Positions 146 through 10,600 of a stretch of DNA of 52,724 nucleotides are shown here, one piece after another. The stretch is from positions 1-52,724 of the forward strand of contig JAGSHC010000013.1 of NCBI GenBank assembly GCA_023954745.1, read 5' to 3'. The DNA comes from Deltaproteobacteria bacterium (GTDB lineage: Bacteria > Myxococcota_A > UBA796 > UBA9615). The notes beneath the pieces are model-generated. The model searched no databases. It was not told the origin of the DNA and saw only the letters and a program-made list of their open reading frames with translations. A program made the position numbers and the translations under genes. Position 1 is the stretch's first letter, and each line of letters opens with the position of its first letter.

Positions 146-2087
146 CGTCGACTCGCGGGGACCAGACCCCATCGAGCAGCGCCCGGGCGGTCAAGGGAGC
201 CTCCGCGATGCCGGTACAAGCGAACGCTTCGGCCGCCACGGCACCACCGGGGGCTCGAGGGTCGGTTCCTGCAAGGGCACACCAGGCCTCGCCAGCGACT
301 GCGTCGATGCGCACCCGCGGGGTCCCCGTCGCACCGGCCACGGCCTGCACCTCTGGCGGGGGCAACGCAGGGTAGAGCCCCTGCGCGACCAACTGTCCCA
401 CGAAGATCTCGGTTCGCTCGGGGAACCAGTCGTTGACGATGCGGTCGGCCTCCTCGAGCCAGTGATCCTCGTACGTGTACAGCTCTGCTTCGGGGTCGCC
501 ACGCACGTCTCGCCAGTGGTCTCCCCACCGGGCGGACTCTCCGATGATCGCAGGCACGACCCGCTCTGACATCCCTTCCCAGCGCGCGACGTTCTCCTCG
601 ATGCCCAGGGCCCCGTCTCCGTACAGGTGCAGGAACGTCCGGTCGCCATACAGGGTCCGGAAGTCGGGGTTGAGGCTGAGGTTTCCAAAGATCTCGCCCG
701 GAGTCCCCTCATCGAGATTCCCCAGGACGTTCTCTTCCACGGCGGTCTGGATGAGCTCCGCGTCCCAGATGAAGAACCGCCAGGTCTCTCCATCCTCGCG
801 CTTCCGCCCCGCCCACCAGTTCTTGATGGGCCAGTCCACGTTCCCGGCGTAGTGGTTGAGCAGCATGTAGTCCGCGAACTCGGTGAGGTCGAGGACTTCT
901 TGCAGCGACGCGTATGCGCTGGGGTCCGTCAGGTCTTCCCGGGCGCGCGCGATGAGATCGTTCCACGCGTCCAGGTCTCCATCGGAGACGACGCCCGAGT
1001 TGATCGCGTCGTATTCGTCTGCGTTCCCCCCAAGGCGCTCGGCCTGAAACGATGCGTCCGGGCGCTCCTGCGCCTGGTACACGCCCCAGTACAGGCCGTT
1101 GAGGAACATGTGCACGGGACGTACGCGCACCGCAGTCCACCCCATGGCCGCGTGGCTCGCGCCCGTCCAAGGTTCGCGCACGTACTGAGCCCGTCGCCGG
1201 CCCCCATGGCTGTAGTAGCCCCAGGTCCGGTTGTATCCAGCGCGGAGCAGGAGGGTGTCGAACCGTTCGACGTCGCCGGTCTCGTAGACCGGAAGGCGCA
1301 GGTCGCCCGAGTACTCCCCGCGGAAGGTCAACCGGAACGACTTCTTCGGTGTTCGGTCGGCGCGTCGCCCGGCTCCGCCGTGGATGCGGACTCCGGAATA
1401 CACCGGCTCGGTCGTCTCAGCGCCGAAGCCGAGGAAGCTCGAGTAGGCGTCGCGCTCCCAGGCCGACCCACCCTCGATCGAGTTCTCGTGGATCCCGTCC
1501 TCGCCGAACAGGTCGTCGGGGTCGATCACCAGGGCGACCGCCGGCACCTCGAAGAACAGCCCGGGAAACAACGTCCCGTCGAGGTCCGCCCCCACCACCT
1601 CCGGGTCGACTTCGTAGTCCGCTGGATAGGGGCCCCCATTGAGCCCCTCCCACCAGTCGGTCGGCCATCCCTCGGGGCGCTGTTGGTTCGGGACGTCGTC
1701 AGCGAAGATCCAGGTCCGCGCTCCCCCATCCCAGAACGGCTCCCCATCCACCCAGACCGCGGCGCGCACCACGGTGGTGGTCTGAATGAGGATCGGCCCG
1801 GAGTAGACCTCCGGGTCCCCGCGCAGCGGGTCCCAACCATCGAACGTGTAGCGCACCTCGCCTTCCCCGAGGGGGTTGGTCAGAGTCAACTCGAACGACT
1901 GATCGACCCACCCGTGGGGGTGGCTGAACATCGAGGCGAAGTCGGGGATCTCCTCGACGACGTCGTCCCCGGTCTGGGGTGTGGAGTCGTCGTCGTCGCC
2001 GGCTGCCGTGACGTCGTCGTCGTCGTTCGCTGCGGATGGGCACCCGGCCAGCAGGATCAGGGAAGCTATTATCGTGGCAATGCGCAT
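123..2087 (-). CDS. CotH kinase-family lipoprotein with chitobiase-like beta domain
   Basis: This encodes 654 aa. The start chosen is the ATG at 2087, which opens a lipoprotein signal peptide (MRIATIIASLILLAGC, Cys16). A GAGGAG-type ribosome site lies about 10 nt upstream. Longer readings run into the divergent gene. After an Asp-rich spacer (residues 20-35) comes a region near 45-130 resembling the CHB_HEX_C beta domain (VRYTFDGWDP, VVRAAVWVDG). A CotH-like kinase fold follows: RIHGGAGRRADRTPKKSFRL near 190-215, YWGVYQAQE, and WRFFIWDAEL near 390. CotH proteins are atypical kinases, first known from spore coats. In other phyla they occur as secreted proteins together with lamin-tail domains. 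Here the lamin-tail domain is a separate divergent gene. The cell-surface role is inferred and the substrate is unknown. Confidence 0.82.
   Translation of the reverse strand: MRIATIIASLILLAGCPSAANDDDDVTAAGDDDDSTPQTGDDVVEEIPDFASMFSHPHGWVDQSFELTLTNPLGEGEVRYTFDGWDPLRGDPEVYSGPILIQTTTVVRAAVWVDGEPFWDGGARTWIFADDVPNQQRPEGWPTDWWEGLNGGPYPADYEVDPEVVGADLDGTLFPGLFFEVPAVALVIDPDDLFGEDGIHENSIEGGSAWERDAYSSFLGFGAETTEPVYSGVRIHGGAGRRADRTPKKSFRLTFRGEYSGDLRLPVYETGDVERFDTLLLRAGYNRTWGYYSHGGRRRAQYVREPWTGASHAAMGWTAVRVRPVHMFLNGLYWGVYQAQERPDASFQAERLGGNADEYDAINSGVVSDGDLDAWNDLIARAREDLTDPSAYASLQEVLDLTEFADYMLLNHYAGNVDWPIKNWWAGRKREDGETWRFFIWDAELIQTAVEENVLGNLDEGTPGEIFGNLSLNPDFRTLYGDRTFLHLYGDGALGIEENVARWEGMSERVVPAIIGESARWGDHWRDVRGDPEAELYTYEDHWLEEADRIVNDWFPERTEIFVGQLVAQGLYPALPPPEVQAVAGATGTPRVRIDAVAGEAWCALAGTDPRAPGGAVAAEAFACTGIAEAPLTARALLDGVWSPRVDVKGVVGL
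2080..2087. other. Palindromic ATGCGCAT carrying both start codons of a divergent gene pair
   Basis: The 8-bp self-complementary sequence ATGCGCAT gives an ATG on each strand: 2080-2082 for the lamin-tail gene and 2087-2085 for the CotH-like gene. There is no intergenic space. Ribosome sites and promoters of each gene must therefore be inside the coding region of the other. If the lamin-tail gene starts at GTG 2074 instead, the overlap grows to 14 bp. Confidence 0.65.
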
Positions 2088-2658: not shown

Positions 2659-4059
2659 TCAGCCATAGATGGCCATCAGGGGGTCCACGCCGTACTCACC
2701 GATGTCCTCGGTGATCCCGGCGCCGGTCAACAGCGCCCGATAGATGTGCTCCGGGTTCACGATCACGCCGCCAGGCGACGGGAGCCCCGTGACGAGGTCG
2801 GTGGTCGTCGGCGCCATGCCCTGGTCCGAGGTCGCGCCGATCACTCGGCCGCCCTGGACTCCGCCCCCCATGAGGAAGCAGGCGTTGTGCAGGAAGTGGT
2901 CCCGCCCGCCGCTCGAGTTCACCAGGGTCGAGCGACCGAACTCGCTGAAGCCCACGATCGTCGTGCGGTCCAGCCAGCTCTCGCCGGTGTCGCCAAACTC
3001 CCGCGTCTCGAGGTCATCCACCATCGCCTTGACCAGGTCAAACCCTGACCGGAGGCGCGCGGGGTGCTCCGACGCCCACTCGGGTCCGTGACTGTCGAGC
3101 CCGTCGGTCACCACGATGGAGACGGATCGGCTGATGCCCGAGGTCACCGCCACCACGGCGCTCGCACACTGGGCGGCCGAGGACGTCAGATCGTCGGGCT
3201 CGATTCCGTAGAGGTCGCGCAGAGCTTGCATCTCGGCTGTCTCGGCGGCGAAGTCGAACCGGTCTCCCAGGCCCTGGTCCACGAGGGATCGTCCGGCCCG
3301 GCGGAAGTCGAGCGCGTCCTGATGGAACCGCGACGCGAACGCCTGCTGTGCGCCTTGATCCGCCAGGAGGTCGTCGGCCAGCGCCTGGAGCCCGTCGGGG
3401 AGGCCGGTCGTGGCCGGCGTGAGCGCCCGCAGGAGGTCCTGTACGGAGCTCACCCGCACCGCGCTCGACCAGCTGGGCTGGTTGGCGTTGTACGACTCCA
3501 CCAATACGGACAGCTGGGGCATGGGCTGCCCGGACCCGAGACAGCTCGCCAACAGGGTCGCCAGAGACGAGCCCTTCGCCTGCAGACCTGTCGGGGGCCG
3601 ACCGGTCAGGAATCTGCGCCGCCCGACCTCGTGAGTCAGGGTGTCCATGCTCAGGCCCCGGACCACGCACATCTTCTCCGCGGCGTACCGGAGGTCGCCG
3701 ATGGCGGGGCCGAACGTCATTTCGGGCACGGAGGTAGGAACGAGCTCGCGGTATTGACTGGGCAGTCGGTCGTAGCCGGGCTGGATGCGCGTCGTCTTTC
3801 GAATGTCGTCCCGAAAGACCGCCGGATCCCGGGGGTCCAGCGACATCAGGAGGTCCCAACCCCCGTCGAAGTAGCAGAAGATGTAGTAGCGGTCCTCGAG
3901 CTCCCCGTCGTCCGCCCGGGCCACCCGGACGAGCGGTCCTCCGGCGCCGAAGGCAGCCAACCCACCCAGGGACGCGAGCCCCCCCAGAACCGTGCGCCGA
4001 TTGGGTCTCCGGTGTCCGTGGCCCCCACGGCAGCTGCGCGTGCATCGATGCTTGGTCAT
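2659..4059 (-). CDS. DUF1501-family protein, Tat-type signal
   Basis: This encodes 466 aa. The start is the ATG at 4059, 7 nt after the upstream stop, with a GAGGTG ribosome site in that gap; the frame is open further upstream but only into the neighbour. The N-terminus has an arginine-rich NRRTVLGGLASLGG stretch followed by a hydrophobic core and VARADDG, which fits a Tat signal for a folded, possibly metal-containing protein. The body matches the DUF1501 pattern, a secreted relative of the alkaline phosphatase/sulfatase superfamily: YYIFCYFDGGWD at the start of the mature domain, then KMCVVRGLSM, VTDGLDSHG, TTIVGFSEFGRS, and NACFLMGGGVQGGRVIG near the end. It is the last gene of a four-gene operon with cytochrome-like and DUF1549-like partners. 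The substrate is unknown. Confidence 0.85.
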   Translation of the reverse strand: MTKHRCTRSCRGGHGHRRPNRRTVLGGLASLGGLAAFGAGGPLVRVARADDGELEDRYYIFCYFDGGWDLLMSLDPRDPAVFRDDIRKTTRIQPGYDRLPSQYRELVPTSVPEMTFGPAIGDLRYAAEKMCVVRGLSMDTLTHEVGRRRFLTGRPPTGLQAKGSSLATLLASCLGSGQPMPQLSVLVESYNANQPSWSSAVRVSSVQDLLRALTPATTGLPDGLQALADDLLADQGAQQAFASRFHQDALDFRRAGRSLVDQGLGDRFDFAAETAEMQALRDLYGIEPDDLTSSAAQCASAVVAVTSGISRSVSIVVTDGLDSHGPEWASEHPARLRSGFDLVKAMVDDLETREFGDTGESWLDRTTIVGFSEFGRSTLVNSSGGRDHFLHNACFLMGGGVQGGRVIGATSDQGMAPTTTDLVTGLPSPGGVIVNPEHIYRALLTGAGITEDIGEYGVDPLMAIYG

Positions 4060-4066
4060 GGGCACC

Positions 4067-4681
4067 TCAGTAGCTGTAGAAGTCGGGGTGGGTGAAGAGG
4101 GCGACGCAGACTGTCTGCCACGCGAGCTCGATGCCGAAGCCATCGTCCGCCTGCTCGATGAGCCGCTGCCAGGGCTGAAGCCGGCTGTCGCCCTCGGGCC
4201 AGTCGTGCCCGTGGAAGCGCAGCAGCGCAGCGCGCAGGTTGGCGCGGGCAGCCTGGCTCGTCGCGGGGTCCGTCAGCTCCGCCCGGACCAGGAAGACCCG
4301 CTCCCCCGGAGTGCGGAGCTGTTCGAGCTCGATCAGGTCCGCGCAGACCTTCTTGCTGGCGTCGTCCAGGAACTTCTGGAACAGAAGAGCAGGCTCGAGC
4401 TCCTCCTCGGTGGCGCCCAGGTAGTCGGGCTTCCCCAGAGTGGGGCTCAGCTCCAGAAACAGGTCGACGTTGGTGGTCCCGCGCAGCTCGGTCCAGCTGA
4501 TGCCCCCGGTCGTCGCGATGACCGCGGAGCGGAGCTGGTCCACGTTCATCCGGCGGCGCTCGCGGCTGAAGGTGTCGGGGACCACGTCCACCGTACCTAC
4601 GGTCTCCACGCTGACCTCGGGGGTGCCGCAGCCCACAGCAAGGAGGAGGAGGGCGACGGCGGCCAGACGTAGGCCGTTCAT
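4067..4681 (-). CDS. Small lipoprotein of the DUF1501 operon
   Basis: This encodes 204 aa. The ATG at 4681 overlaps the stop of the upstream gene as ATGA, implying translational coupling. The signal peptide MNGLRLAAVALLLLAVGC is followed at once by a short Gly/Thr/Pro linker. The mature part is mostly helical, with one conserved-looking end, AWQTVCVALFTHPDFYSY. That end recalls the closing motif of DUF1553/DUF1585-type planctomycete proteins (Val-Cys-x-Ala-Leu followed by an aromatic Phe-Tyr/Leu-Tyr end). I infer it may be a detached or shortened piece of that architecture. No catalytic residues can be recognised. It probably acts with the DUF1501 protein 7 nt downstream. Confidence 0.7.
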   Translation of the reverse strand: MNGLRLAAVALLLLAVGCGTPEVSVETVGTVDVVPDTFSRERRRMNVDQLRSAVIATTGGISWTELRGTTNVDLFLELSPTLGKPDYLGATEEELEPALLFQKFLDDASKKVCADLIELEQLRTPGERVFLVRAELTDPATSQAARANLRAALLRFHGHDWPEGDSRLQPWQRLIEQADDGFGIELAWQTVCVALFTHPDFYSY

Positions 4682-6231
4682 CGCACCCTCCGGTACCGCT
4701 CGCTCGTCAGGATGTCCCTGACCAGGGCCTTGTAGTTGAACTGCCCGTCAGCGAAGCGTCCCGCGATCTCGTCGAGCCAGTCCTCTTCGACCTCCGCCAG
4801 GTCGCGGCCCAAGAGCCAGCCCGCGGTCTTCTGGGCCACGCAACGGGGCAAGCGGCCGTCGACGACACCGCTGGCGACCAGCAGTTGTGGGCCGAGCTCG
4901 ATGTTCTCCTGGTGTCGGGACTCGATGAACTCGTAGGACTGCATCCACCCCACCCATGGGTCCTCCTCGGAGGAGATGGGGTCGACGACGTAGTAGTTCC
5001 GGCACTCGGGGCTACAGGACTCACCGGTCTGGGCGCACCACGCGCAGTCCTCGCGGTAGGGGGAGTAGTCCTCGGGGTCCAGGTAGCCGGCCCCATACTC
5101 TCCGAAGCGACCCCAGTGGGCGGCCGCCGGCTCGAGCAGGGCGTGGCAATAGCGGCACCCATCACGTTCGGTGAGGTCGATGGGCGGATCGGGATCGTCG
5201 AGGCCGCTCAGCCCGTCCGCCGGTGCCTGGAATGGCTGACAGAGGAACGCGTTGTGGAACCGGTTGGCGCGGCCGCGACGCGTCTGGAACTTCATCAGGT
5301 AGGCGGTGGAGGTGAGGACGCCAGACTGCTCGGGCCCCAGGGTCAATTCGACCCATGTGTCCTCGTCTTCGAAGGCCAGCTCCGGCAACAGCGCCGGATC
5401 CACCGGCACCTCGTTGAAGCGGATGTGGGCTGGCACCTGCGTCTGGTACTTGAGGAAGTGCACCAGCGGTCCGTTGACGTACATCGTCCTGCCGGTCAGG
5501 ACCTCGAGGTAGGACAGATCCTGCTCGATGACCCGGGAGATACGACGCTCCATGTCCCCCACGATCGCCACGGCAACCGGTGGGTTCGGGTTTCCGCCGT
5601 TGTGCCCCAGGTTGAAGGTGTCGCACCACGCGAGGTTCGGGCCGCAGCCGCAGTGCGGGTCGTATCGGCTCTCGTAGGTGTTGCACTTCGTGCCCCAGGG
5701 GCTGTACAGCGCTTCCTGGGCTTCGAACGCGCAGACCTTCACCTTGATGTCTGGGTTCCAGTACGGCGTCACCTCGACCCAGCCTTCCTGGGTCCAGCCA
5801 TTCTCATCGGTGGTGGTGACGAGCTCCCCGTTGGCGTCCCACGAGGCCTCGAAGTCGCCGCACGAGACGGGACCGCCGCGGTAGTGGGGAGCCACGAGGT
5901 AGCGGTAGTACACCCCGTCCCGATAGAGCAGCCGTTGCCGGTTGCTCAGAAGTCGGATGTCGCTGACGTTCGGCCACAGGAGTGAGCGGTGGTGCCTCAC
6001 GACCTGCGAGGCAAACTCGGGCGTGGCGAGCCACTCGTCGATCAACGACTCGACGGACTCGCCCGCGGCGACCCGCGCATGCTCCTCGGGGGTGGGGGGA
6101 GCGCCGCGCAGATCCAGGCTGACCGCCCGGAGCCAACGGTGGTTGTCGAGGAGGGCGTCCTGGGCTGCTCCCAGGGACGGCAGGAGCAGGAGCAGCAGCC
6201 CGAGCAAGCTCCCAAGCATTCGGCTCGTCAC
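4678..6231 (-). CDS. DUF1549-like secreted protein with CxxCH motif
   Basis: This encodes 517 aa. The start chosen is the GTG at 6231, because its GTGA overlaps the upstream stop and a strong AGGAGG lies 9 nt before it. An ATG at 6219 is possible but 21 nt from that site. The signal peptide is residues 1-22 (LLLLLLPSLGAAQD). The opening RAVSLDLRGAPPTPEE and WLATPEF strongly resemble the DUF1549 signature (LDLxGxPPTPEE). A C-R-Y-C-H heme-type motif at residues 359-363, followed by LEPAAAHWGRFGEYG, resembles the CxxCH region of planctomycete-type DUF1588/1592 proteins. The end, LVRDILTSERYRR, is also typical. A central Cys-rich part (GTKCNTYESRYDPHCGCGP) may form disulfides. Its role is probably envelope redox or polymer processing with the DUF1501 partner (inference). 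Confidence 0.72.
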   Translation of the reverse strand: MTSRMLGSLLGLLLLLLPSLGAAQDALLDNHRWLRAVSLDLRGAPPTPEEHARVAAGESVESLIDEWLATPEFASQVVRHHRSLLWPNVSDIRLLSNRQRLLYRDGVYYRYLVAPHYRGGPVSCGDFEASWDANGELVTTTDENGWTQEGWVEVTPYWNPDIKVKVCAFEAQEALYSPWGTKCNTYESRYDPHCGCGPNLAWCDTFNLGHNGGNPNPPVAVAIVGDMERRISRVIEQDLSYLEVLTGRTMYVNGPLVHFLKYQTQVPAHIRFNEVPVDPALLPELAFEDEDTWVELTLGPEQSGVLTSTAYLMKFQTRRGRANRFHNAFLCQPFQAPADGLSGLDDPDPPIDLTERDGCRYCHALLEPAAAHWGRFGEYGAGYLDPEDYSPYREDCAWCAQTGESCSPECRNYYVVDPISSEEDPWVGWMQSYEFIESRHQENIELGPQLLVASGVVDGRLPRCVAQKTAGWLLGRDLAEVEEDWLDEIAGRFADGQFNYKALVRDILTSERYRRVR

Positions 6232-7631
6232 GGTTGGAATCCTCCTAGCCACCAGGCCTCGATGGCCGCGATCTGCGCGTCGTTGAGGGGGTCTCCGATC
6301 GGCATCGCACCGGAGCGCACGTTGAAGAGAACGTCGTCGATCTGCTCTTCCCACAGGGCCGGTGTGTCGAGCCGGGTGTCGGTGTCGCCGTCGTGGCAAC
6401 GAGCGCACTCTTCGAGGTAGAGGGGCTCGATGTCGTTTGCCCACGTGACGTTTCCGATGGGATCGATCGAAAAGGTCAGGGGCAAGGAGTCAGCTTCTCC
6501 TCCGTCGTCCCAGACCGCGTGGGCGGACAGCGTGTGGGAGTCCAGCGTGGAGAGCCCCTCCAGCTCGAGGCGGAACCGCCCGTCCTCCAGCGCGACAGGC
6601 TCTCCATCCAACGTCGCGGTGAGGTCTGTCACGACCCCTAGCCGGCTCGGAAAGAGCTCGATGGTGACCGCGTTGGCGAGGCGCTCCCCGTGCTGCACTC
6701 CCCGAACCGCCACCCCGCGGTCGAGGGCGAGCCGCTCCACCCCGGATGCCGTCGGCACGAGCAGGCGGCCCAGATCATCGACCCGCAGCACGCCGGAGTA
6801 GCTCCTGCCGGTGTCGATGAGCGTCTCGCCGCGCGCGTGGAGGAGCGAGGACTCGGTCTGCACCCAGGCCCCGGGTGCTCCGGGGTCGGCGGAGACAGCG
6901 AGCACTGGCTCGTCCACGTCGAACCGCGCCCAGGCTCCCTCGACCGACCGCCACCACAAGGCGCTGCCCGCGAGGGCCCAGAGGTTTCCTTCGGAGTCCG
7001 CAGCCAGCATGTCGGCCGGGAGGCCAGTCCGGTGGTCCACGGTCTCCCAGCCCTCGATCAGCATCCCCAGCACGCCCGCCTTGTGCCGAGCCCAGAGGAC
7101 GGTCTTCCCGTCCGGGGTCGCGCCGAGCGCGAAGGCCTTGTCGACAGGCTGATCACCAAACCGGATCCGGTCGACCCGGCCGTCTGCGACCCGGTGGAGC
7201 TCGGCGGGTGTCTGAAGCCAAAGCTCCCCGCCGCGGTCCCGCACGGATGTAGGGGGTCCGCCCAGCAACTCCGAAACGGCCGACGTCGCCAGTCCTTCAC
7301 CCGTCCAGACACGCACATCCGTCCCGGTCACGACGACGGGCACGTCGCCGCGCAGGGTCGCGCCCCCAACCAGTGCGTAGTCGCCGACGTCCACCACCGT
7401 GAGATCGGGCAGGCCCTCGTCGTAGAGGAACAACTCGTTGCCTGAACGCACGAGCGCTCGATATCCACCCAGGGGGACTACCTCATCGGCTGCCCCACTC
7501 ACGGGTGCGTCGATCAGGAGTTCAGCCGTGTCGAGGTCAGCGACCCGGATGCTCCGCACGTCGCAGCCCGCTATCGTCAGTGCGATGGACACGAAGAGGA
7601 GATTTCGGCTCATACCTCCCAAAAGTAGCAT
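6228..7631 (-). CDS. Lipoprotein with beta-propeller-like body and C-terminal cytochrome c domain
   Basis: This encodes 467 aa. The start chosen is the ATG at 7631, with AGGAG 13 nt upstream. A second in-frame ATG at 7613 has a ribosome site only 2 nt away. The lipobox is LTIAGC. Residues about 25-330 contain repeated short beta strands and Gly-Asp turns (GNLWALAG, LWLQTPAELHRV, GRLLVPTASGVERL), as in two-component-regulator-type or SMP-like propellers. The C-terminus is a class I cytochrome c domain. It has C-A-R-C-H at residues 409-413, with the supporting IEPLYLEECARCH context, and a distal Met in RSGAMPIG about 30 residues later. It ends with IAAIEAWWLGGF, a usual cytochrome c C-terminal helix. 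It is the first gene of the operon and probably supplies electrons, or heme-based sensing, to the DUF1549/DUF1501 proteins. Confidence 0.75.
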   Translation of the reverse strand: MLLLGGMSRNLLFVSIALTIAGCDVRSIRVADLDTAELLIDAPVSGAADEVVPLGGYRALVRSGNELFLYDEGLPDLTVVDVGDYALVGGATLRGDVPVVVTGTDVRVWTGEGLATSAVSELLGGPPTSVRDRGGELWLQTPAELHRVADGRVDRIRFGDQPVDKAFALGATPDGKTVLWARHKAGVLGMLIEGWETVDHRTGLPADMLAADSEGNLWALAGSALWWRSVEGAWARFDVDEPVLAVSADPGAPGAWVQTESSLLHARGETLIDTGRSYSGVLRVDDLGRLLVPTASGVERLALDRGVAVRGVQHGERLANAVTIELFPSRLGVVTDLTATLDGEPVALEDGRFRLELEGLSTLDSHTLSAHAVWDDGGEADSLPLTFSIDPIGNVTWANDIEPLYLEECARCHDGDTDTRLDTPALWEEQIDDVLFNVRSGAMPIGDPLNDAQIAAIEAWWLGGFQP

Positions 7632-10600
7632 CTTTGCGGCGTTTCTCCTGTGTTCTGGATGTCCCTCGGGCGACCCCGGCCCCATGGAGGACCCCACGCC
7701 GGCCCGCGCTGCTTGTGACCCGGCCCTCACTCTGACGCCGGCCTCGTCGGTGGTGGAGACGCGAGGATTCGTTCAGCTGGTCGGTGGTGGTGGGACCGGT
7801 GACCACCGGTTCGCCCTCCAAGAGGACGCGACCGGCGCCGAGGTCAACAGCACCACGGGCGCCTACCTGGCGGGGCCGGTCGACGGCATCGACCGCATCG
7901 TGGTCCGAGACGACGGCTGCGACGGCGAGGCCGCTGCCCAGATTGAGGTCGTCGGGCCATTGATCGTGGCCCCCGAAGCGACGCGCGTGCCCCCGGGCAC
8001 CGGGGTCTCGCCCGCCGTGACGGGGGGATCGGGCTCGTGGAGCTGCGAGATGACTGTGGACGGCAGCGGCCCAACCCTGGCCGGCTGCGCGTACACAGCA
8101 GGCCCAGACCCCGGCCTGGACATTCTGCGGATCACCGACGACGCAACGGGCGCCTTCGGCGAGGTGCAGATCGAGGTCGGGTCCGAGCACGCGCTCCGCG
8201 CGGCCGGCGAGGGAGGCATGTTCGTCGTCGCCGGGAGTCCGGCCGCCGTCTGGACCGTCGGAGGGAGCGGGGAGGTGACCCTCCAACCCGCGGGAGATCT
8301 CACCGTCGATGGGAACCGCGTGTCGGCGGAGACAGGAGCGTCGGGGACGATCACGGTGCAGGACCTGTACTCGCCGGAGCTCAGCGTCGATCTCCCCGTG
8401 ACGGGGGTGGGAGCTCGGGTGCCCGAGCTCGCGCGGGACGGAGAGCGCAGCGGTCAGGGGGTGGTACTCGGCCTCGGAGATGTGGACGGAGACAACCTGC
8501 CCGATGCGGCCCTGGCGTTCATTGAATCCAGCATCGGGGCCTACTACTCGGGGGCGGTCGCCATCTATGGGGGCAACGGCGCGGGGCTCGACGCTGTTCC
8601 CGCCCGCGTGATCGGCGGAACGGACGCCATGCAGACTCTGGGCCGCTCCGTGGCTGCCGCAGACCTCGATGGAGACGGCCTCGTCGACCTCCTCGTCGGA
8701 GCGGACCGCACGGACCGGGGAGTGACGAACAACGGCGCCCTCATGATCTACTCCGGGGTCGCTGGCCAATACTTCTCTGACGAGCCGACCCGCGTCCTCT
8801 ATGGCCGCAACGCGTATGCGCGCTTTGGGAGCGCCGTGGCGGTCTGTGACTTTGACGGGGACGGCTTCCTCGACCTCGCGGTAGGGGCGATGGAGGACAT
8901 CGACGAGGCCGTCGCCGAGCCCGCCGTGGACCAGGGCGCGGTGCACGTCTTCAGGGGGGCTGCCGGGGGCTTCGATGACGAAGCCAACTTCATCCTGCAC
9001 GGCAAGCAGTGGTCGTTGGACGACGGCTGGGCGTCCACCCCAGGCATGAACCTGGGGGTCGCCCTGGCAGCTGGGGACTTCGACGGCGACGGCCTGTGCG
9101 ACCTCGCGGCGGGCGCCTCGGAGGCGTCGTTCGACGGCGAAGCAAGAACCGGCGCCGTCTTCCTCTACCTCGGGACCCTTGAGAATGCGGCGTTGCTCAC
9201 CCGCGACCCCGCCCTCGTCCTCGAGGGCGCGGGGGGCGGCCAGCTCGGACGACGCCTCAGCATGGGGGACGTGAACGGCGATGGCCGCGCTGACCTCGCC
9301 GCGACTGCCTGGGACCTCGATGGTGCCGCGTCTGGGGTGGGTGCGGTGCGGCTCTTGAGGGGGCGAGCAGTGCTCCCGACCGATGGGGGCGAGCGCGTCC
9401 CCGCCGGCAACGTCGACTGGTCGGTGCTGGGCACCACGAGCTTCGAACGCGTCGGAACGGACGTCCACCTCGCAGACCAGGACGGCGACGGCGACGCGGA
9501 GCTTCTGATCGGCGTGTACCGGGGGGAGGTCGGCATCGGCGTCAACGAGGGGGTCATCCGGCAGTACGACGCGGACACCCTCTCTTCTGCGCCGCCCGGC
9601 CACGACGCGACCGGCGAGCCTCCGGACCGGGAGCTGGAGGGCCCCGCAGCTCAGGCACGGTTTGGCCAGGCGGTCGCGTTCATCGACGACACGGACGGGG
9701 ATGGAATGCGTGAGATCCTCGGTCTCGCTGGCTTCGACTCGTCCGAGGGGATCGAGTCGGGTGGGCTCTACGCGGTCGACGGCGGAGGCAGCAGCTCCCT
9801 CGAGCCACTCCAGGTCCCCGGCGTCGCGTCGGGACACGAGGTCGGCCGGGGGGTGCTCCTCCATGACATGGACGGAGACAGCACGCTGGACCTGGTGGTC
9901 GGAGTCCCTGGCGCCGGCTCCGAAGACTCGGGGGCGAACTCGGGGCGGGTTGAGGTCTACCCGGGGCTGGGGGGAGGCGTGTTCGGGGACCTGCCCGTCC
10001 CGCGTCTGGGAGGACACGACACGCACAGTTCGTCGGACCACTTCGGGTATGCGGTGCGGAGCGCTGGAGACTTCGACGGCGACGGCTGGGAGGACCTCGC
10101 TGTGGTCGCGCGGAAGGGCGGGCGCCCCTCGGCCTTCGACTCCGACGAGGTTGCGAACCCAGACGACTGCCCGGGCGCCGCCTCGAGCGTGGGGGAGGTG
10201 TTCGTCTACCGCGGAGGTCCGGCGGGGATCGCGGACGAGCCCTCGTTCGTGTGGTACGGCCTGGAGTCGAGCGCCTATGTCTACGAGATCGAGGGGGGCT
10301 TCGACCGGAACGGGGACGGGTACGACGACCTCGCCGTAGCGAGCCGACTCTGGGGCGACGGCGGAGGATTCGCCTTCGTGCGTGGGCGACCGGCGGACGA
10401 AGGCCTGACCGTGATCTGCGAGGAGGAGTCCTACGACGCCACGTCGCGCTTCGACGACTTGGGGTCCAGCATCGCAGTGCTCGGGGACCTCGACTCCGAT
10501 GGCTGCGATGAGGTCGCTGTCGGCGCCGCGCGGGATGAAGTCGACTACTTCAACCAGGGCATCGTTCGAGTGATGTGGGGGTTCGGCGCCTCATGCACGC

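Follow-up and report, generated by a model that had tools for sequence, protein, structure and literature searches.

Two divergent lipoprotein genes with overlapping start codons and a probable leaderless promoter within signal-peptide codons

Divergent genes whose coding sequences overlap are thought to be rare, since both promoters and both ribosome sites would need to fit within coding sequence. The locus described here raises the question of how two lipoprotein genes that start within the same 8 bp could each be expressed. The window, i.e. the 52,724-nucleotide stretch of DNA that was analyzed, is the whole contig C306 of a GC-rich 7.13-Mb genome (G000), and the comparison was extended across 71 genomes of its class. 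Genes were called with a purpose-written codon-usage caller, whose starts are approximate. The G000 sample mentioned below consists of the window plus 84 further stretches (L049-L051, L212, and L221-L300).

The sequence ATGCGCAT at nucleotides 2080-2087 is an 8-bp overlap common to the starts of both genes. Read from it on the forward strand, a lipoprotein with a lamin-tail domain (LTD) begins MRMIVLLLAPVVFALAGC; read on the reverse strand, a CotH-kinase-like lipoprotein begins MRIATIIASLILLAGC. The LTD gene (2080-2637, forward) encodes 185 amino acids and matches Pfam PF00932 (1.3e-9), and the CotH gene (123-2087, reverse) encodes 654 amino acids, matches PF08757 (7.1e-17), and includes a CHB_HEX_C_1 domain. 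Both proteins carry the lipobox LAGC. An earlier note, made from the sequence of the window, had claimed that one 8-bp palindrome supplies both ATG codons and that both genes open good signal peptides; both claims are borne out, while nucleotide 2074 corresponds to an in-frame GTG of LTD. The two starts are independently supported, as each opens a lipobox signal peptide and CotH has a single possible start: its position at 2087 is fixed because ATG, GTG, and TTG are absent between codon 1 and the lipobox cysteine, and none is found in frame close upstream. LTD could start at GTG 2074, ATG 2080, or ATG 2086, and each of the three overlaps CotH, by 2 to 14 bp. A start further in for one of the genes, which the earlier note had named as one refuting case, is very improbable. 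The ATG at 2086 was rejected as the LTD start; it would leave the signal peptide without a charged n-region and place the −10 box described below 6 bp too far away, and the overlap would remain anyway. The divergent overlap between LTD and CotH is real and unusual.

The palindrome itself is incidental. ATGNNCAT occurs six times in the window versus 2.5±1.7 expected, one in four ATGNNCAT words is palindromic, and ATGCGCAT occurs once versus 0.23 expected. The residues MR are the first two in 38% of the lipobox genes of this genome, and the 8-mer is explained by two ATG codons at such spacing plus this common start. A role of the palindrome as a functional site was consequently discarded; it is a by-product, and the unusual feature is the arrangement of the genes.

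The two genes most likely differ in how their expression starts. In the reading that we favor, with a probability of about 0.55, the locus can be considered a divergent lipoprotein pair that was compacted until the start codons overlapped, in which LTD would be expressed as a leaderless gene from within CotH codons and CotH would be the distal gene of an upstream operon. LTD would form a one-gene transcription unit, with transcription beginning at the A of ATG 2080 or next to it and with ribosomes loading at the 5′ end of the mRNA without a ribosome site. The operon mRNA would run antisense through the entire LTD gene, and CotH would be translated from its own ribosome site within LTD codons. 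The locus would therefore be a noncontiguous operon with one embedded opposite-strand gene.

Genome G000 uses leaderless starts above chance, as judged from the sequence signal. A TAnnnT box is found at −14 to −12 in 39 of 255 genes that are first in their transcription unit (about 15%); 500 shuffles gave a mean of 2.9 and a maximum of 8 such genes. Genes within operons almost never have a box there. Ribosome sites precede 18% of the first genes with such a box versus 61% of all first genes, and no −35 consensus was found in the leaderless set. Coding sequence is otherwise nearly free of TAnnnT (0.2-0.3 per kb), and only 10 of 15,366 intragenic ATG codons (0.065%) have a box in the leaderless register. 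The position of the box and the scarcity of ribosome sites agree with the published signature of TA-led genes, which are first in their unit, lack a ribosome site, and carry TANNNT about 12 bp before the start codon; among delta-proteobacteria, 8 of 33 genomes were reported to have such genes, with a mean of 15.8% (PMC3160421). Leaderless boxes are present in 5 of 8 very close divergent pairs versus 28 of 86 others (p 0.10), an excess that is suggestive only. Four close divergent pairs have both −10 boxes at, or at most one base from, the leaderless register: L049 4044-6201, L257 8893-10716, L253 12745-14246, and L295 3514-6365, with gaps of 67, 45, 44, and 20 bp, respectively. The two boxes of L295 overlap within its 20-bp gap, and L049 carries an LTD paralogue.

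On the CotH strand no TAnnnT is found across LTD, nor from 2088 up to 4595; the only ones going upstream are at 4595, inside p204, and at 7627, in the leaderless register for g500. These two genes belong to a conserved reverse-strand operon that many genomes of the class share, with intergenic gaps of −4, −4, and +7 bp. In order of transcription it includes g500 (6228-7613), a lipoprotein that weakly matches cytochrome CBB3; a PSCyt2/PSD2 (DUF1549/DUF1585) protein (4678-6231); p204 (4067-4681), a 204-amino acid lipoprotein conserved in 15 or more genomes of the class; and a DUF1501 protein with a twin-arginine-type N-terminus (2659-4059), whose gene is convergent to LTD across a 21-bp gap. The proposed −10 box of the operon, TACTTT (7627-7622, reverse), is at −14 of ATG 7613. 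By gene order, the opposite-strand LTD lies between the co-directional DUF1501 and CotH genes, and no intrinsic terminator was found between these two. CotH is probably the last gene of this operon, with LTD antisense inside it, because it stands behind the conserved operon and in the related genome G021 is directly attached to it. A putative ribosome site, GAGGAG..AGGA (2093-2103, reverse), is located inside LTD codons (AGGA-N5-ATG, GAGGAG-N10-ATG).

Membership of CotH in the operon is a weaker step than the LTD promoter. The absence of TAnnnT upstream of CotH favors it only about twofold, because TAnnnT is likewise missing, within 200 nt, from about 40% of the transcription-unit-first genes. 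In addition, the RNA between the DUF1501 stop and the CotH start, antisense and untranslated over about 570 nt, would be exposed to Rho termination, which speaks against co-transcription. It is possible, but on balance doubtful, that LTD is leaderless from the box in CotH while CotH has a promoter of its own within LTD, either not of the TAnnnT type or dependent on an activator or an ECF factor. The two genes would then be separate units with competing, face-to-face overlapping 5′ ends, close to what the earlier note had pictured. The many first genes of G000 without TAnnnT are compatible with such a promoter, as are the relatives G064 and G052, in which the LTD-CotH pair stands apart from the operon with space for promoters of its own and CotH must have one. 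Against it are the lack of any CotH-strand TAnnnT within LTD and the operon adjacency common to G021, where CotH and DUF1501 overlap by ATGA.

With CotH taken as the distal operon gene, the arrangement resembles the menE-menC-MW1733-ytkD-MW1731 noncontiguous operon of S. aureus (reviewed in PMC7154746), in which one opposite-strand gene likewise interrupts an operon and gives an mRNA that is antisense to an untranslated segment within the polycistronic transcript. The present case differs in that co-transcription is here a prediction, in the overlap of the start of the embedded LTD with that of the next operon gene, and in the probable location of the LTD promoter inside the CotH signal peptide.

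The LTD promoter probably sits within the CotH signal-peptide codons because a TATTAT sequence (2067-2072, forward) is found in register, its first base at −13 from ATG 2080, and because the codons that it occupies are extremely rare together. On the opposite strand this putative −10 box corresponds to CotH codons 6 and 7, ATA ATA (Ile-Ile). ATA accounts for 32 of the 9,260 isoleucine codons in the sample (0.35%; 2.1% within codons 2-15), and 686 genes contain 268 Ile-Ile pairs, of which only that of CotH is ATA-ATA. Together with an overlapping neighbor, TATTAT is the only TAnnnT within 380 nt upstream of LTD on the forward strand, and no classical sigma-70 promoter with a −35 box was found. 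What the register shows is a signal in the sequence, distinct from a mapped start. LTD differs from published TA-led genes in that its box falls within the codons of a divergent neighbor instead of an intergenic region. It is improbable that LTD is instead an ordinary leadered gene initiated at GTG 2074, with its promoter deeper in CotH and TATTAT a coincidence. The sequence AGGGAAG (2059-2065, forward), a possible ribosome site only for this start, is well spaced to it (8 nucleotides), but TATTAT lies in the leaderless register, for which the intragenic chance is about 6.5e-4, it consists of two codons that are hardly ever used, and the forward strand offers no other TAnnnT in the 380 nt. The earlier proposal that promoters and ribosome sites must lie in the coding sequence of the partner therefore stands in part: it agrees with the LTD promoter box in CotH and the CotH ribosome site in LTD, and it lacks support in that LTD is probably leaderless and needs no ribosome site, and in that CotH need not have a promoter in LTD, the proposed operon promoter being 5.5 kb upstream.

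Under the favored reading, leaderless LTD with CotH in the operon, the locus would illustrate two ways to relieve the constraint on divergent overlaps. For a leaderless start a −10 box suffices, and two signal-peptide codons have room for it; the partner gene can be carried by an upstream operon. The ATA-ATA pair would be the codon-level signature of this arrangement and offers a directly testable case of coding sequence constrained by the promoter of a neighbor.

The CotH proteins of G000, G064, G052, and G021 group in a single clade (100/100), in which G000 pairs with G064 and G052 with G021. LTD is divergent to CotH in three of these four genomes, which represent three families: G000, G064 (46-bp gap), and G052 (45-bp gap). 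In G021, CotH directly follows DUF1501, with no LTD between them or beside CotH. Conservation of the overlap in relatives, proposed earlier as a check, was thus not observed; the divergent arrangement is shared by two other families, and the overlap is unique to G000. No divergent LTD-CotH pairs were found outside the class in 80 named loci and a phylum search. In an LTD tree built to examine the orthology of the three divergent LTDs, P0001 pairs with a stand-alone LTD of G021 (96/72), and one clade of P0001 with the G064 and G052 LTDs was not rejected (p 0.38).

In the gap of G064 (L170) two opposed −10 boxes overlap, TAGCAT (2371-2376) and TATCCT (2372-2367), and the predicted starts are 23 bp apart, a spacing among the common ones in bidirectional promoters with a shared −10 element (PMC12825309). 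The LTD-CotH pair of the window differs in that the reverse box has been lost (GATAAT, which would start inside CotH), and its promoter looks one-way for this reason. It is likely that the pair was once divergent around a shared promoter and that the CotH start later shifted outward across this promoter to meet that of LTD. The bidirectional layout is also seen in the window between g500 (reverse) and an FG-GAP lipoprotein gene (forward, called at 7684), a conserved divergent pair (7613-7684) that many genomes of the class share, where the −10-like boxes TACTTT (7627-7622) and TAGCAT (7626-7631) overlap in opposition. A good lipobox (FAAFLLCSGC) is encoded upstream of the called ATG 7684 of the FG-GAP gene (7626-7684), with no obvious well-placed ATG, GTG, or TTG for the signal peptide, perhaps because the start codon is unusual or the sequence contains an error.

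Divergent overlapping gene pairs are strongly under-represented (PMC2174442). The G000 sample includes 94 divergent pairs with confident calls in 0.94 Mb, with a median gap of 148 bp. Five of them overlap; three of the five have GTG starts that appear over-extended, and LTD-CotH is the sole one whose starts are fixed by lipoboxes. That the overlap is an artefact, one gene truly beginning further in or the contig being mis-joined, is very improbable and largely refuted: the divergent overlaps of more than 60 bp that were studied in public annotation all proved to be mispredicted starts (PMC2478687), but the present head-to-head overlap has few bases under any start, the lipoprotein signal peptides fix the reading of both genes, and the divergent LTD-CotH pair and the DUF1501-CotH adjacency are each found again in other genomes. 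A candidate second divergent overlap, CATG (2 bp), is located at L300 1503-1518 (G000:C476), where an apparent asparaginyl-tRNA synthetase gene, identified by eye, has TAGGCT at −14 within the called coding sequence of its partner. It was left uncounted as an overlap of the same type, as the partner may start further in.

The CotH match scores 62.3 bits versus a curated cut-off of 23.8. Conserved Asp and Asn residues are present in the CotH alignment (A3), and a search of PDB chains with the A3 profile gave no match at E≤0.01. The pair most likely consists of a kinase-like protein of the outer surface and an LTD partner. The two proteins probably work together, because 76 of 113 related CotH proteins carry both domains as a fusion; the four-member clade differs in having LTD as a separate gene. 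Expression of one gene could possibly exclude that of the other, through antisense mRNAs or head-on polymerases, but the fusions argue for joint use. We consider, tentatively, that the CotH signal-peptide codons may be retained as core promoter for a leaderless LTD, itself antisense in the operon that transcribes CotH, and that interference of both transcriptions at one 8-bp point may set the ratio of the two partner surface proteins. Divergent pairs formed by two LTD lipoprotein genes are found in L045, L046, L047, and L048, and those in L045, L046, and L048 adjoin apparent VTC and DUF4956 genes.
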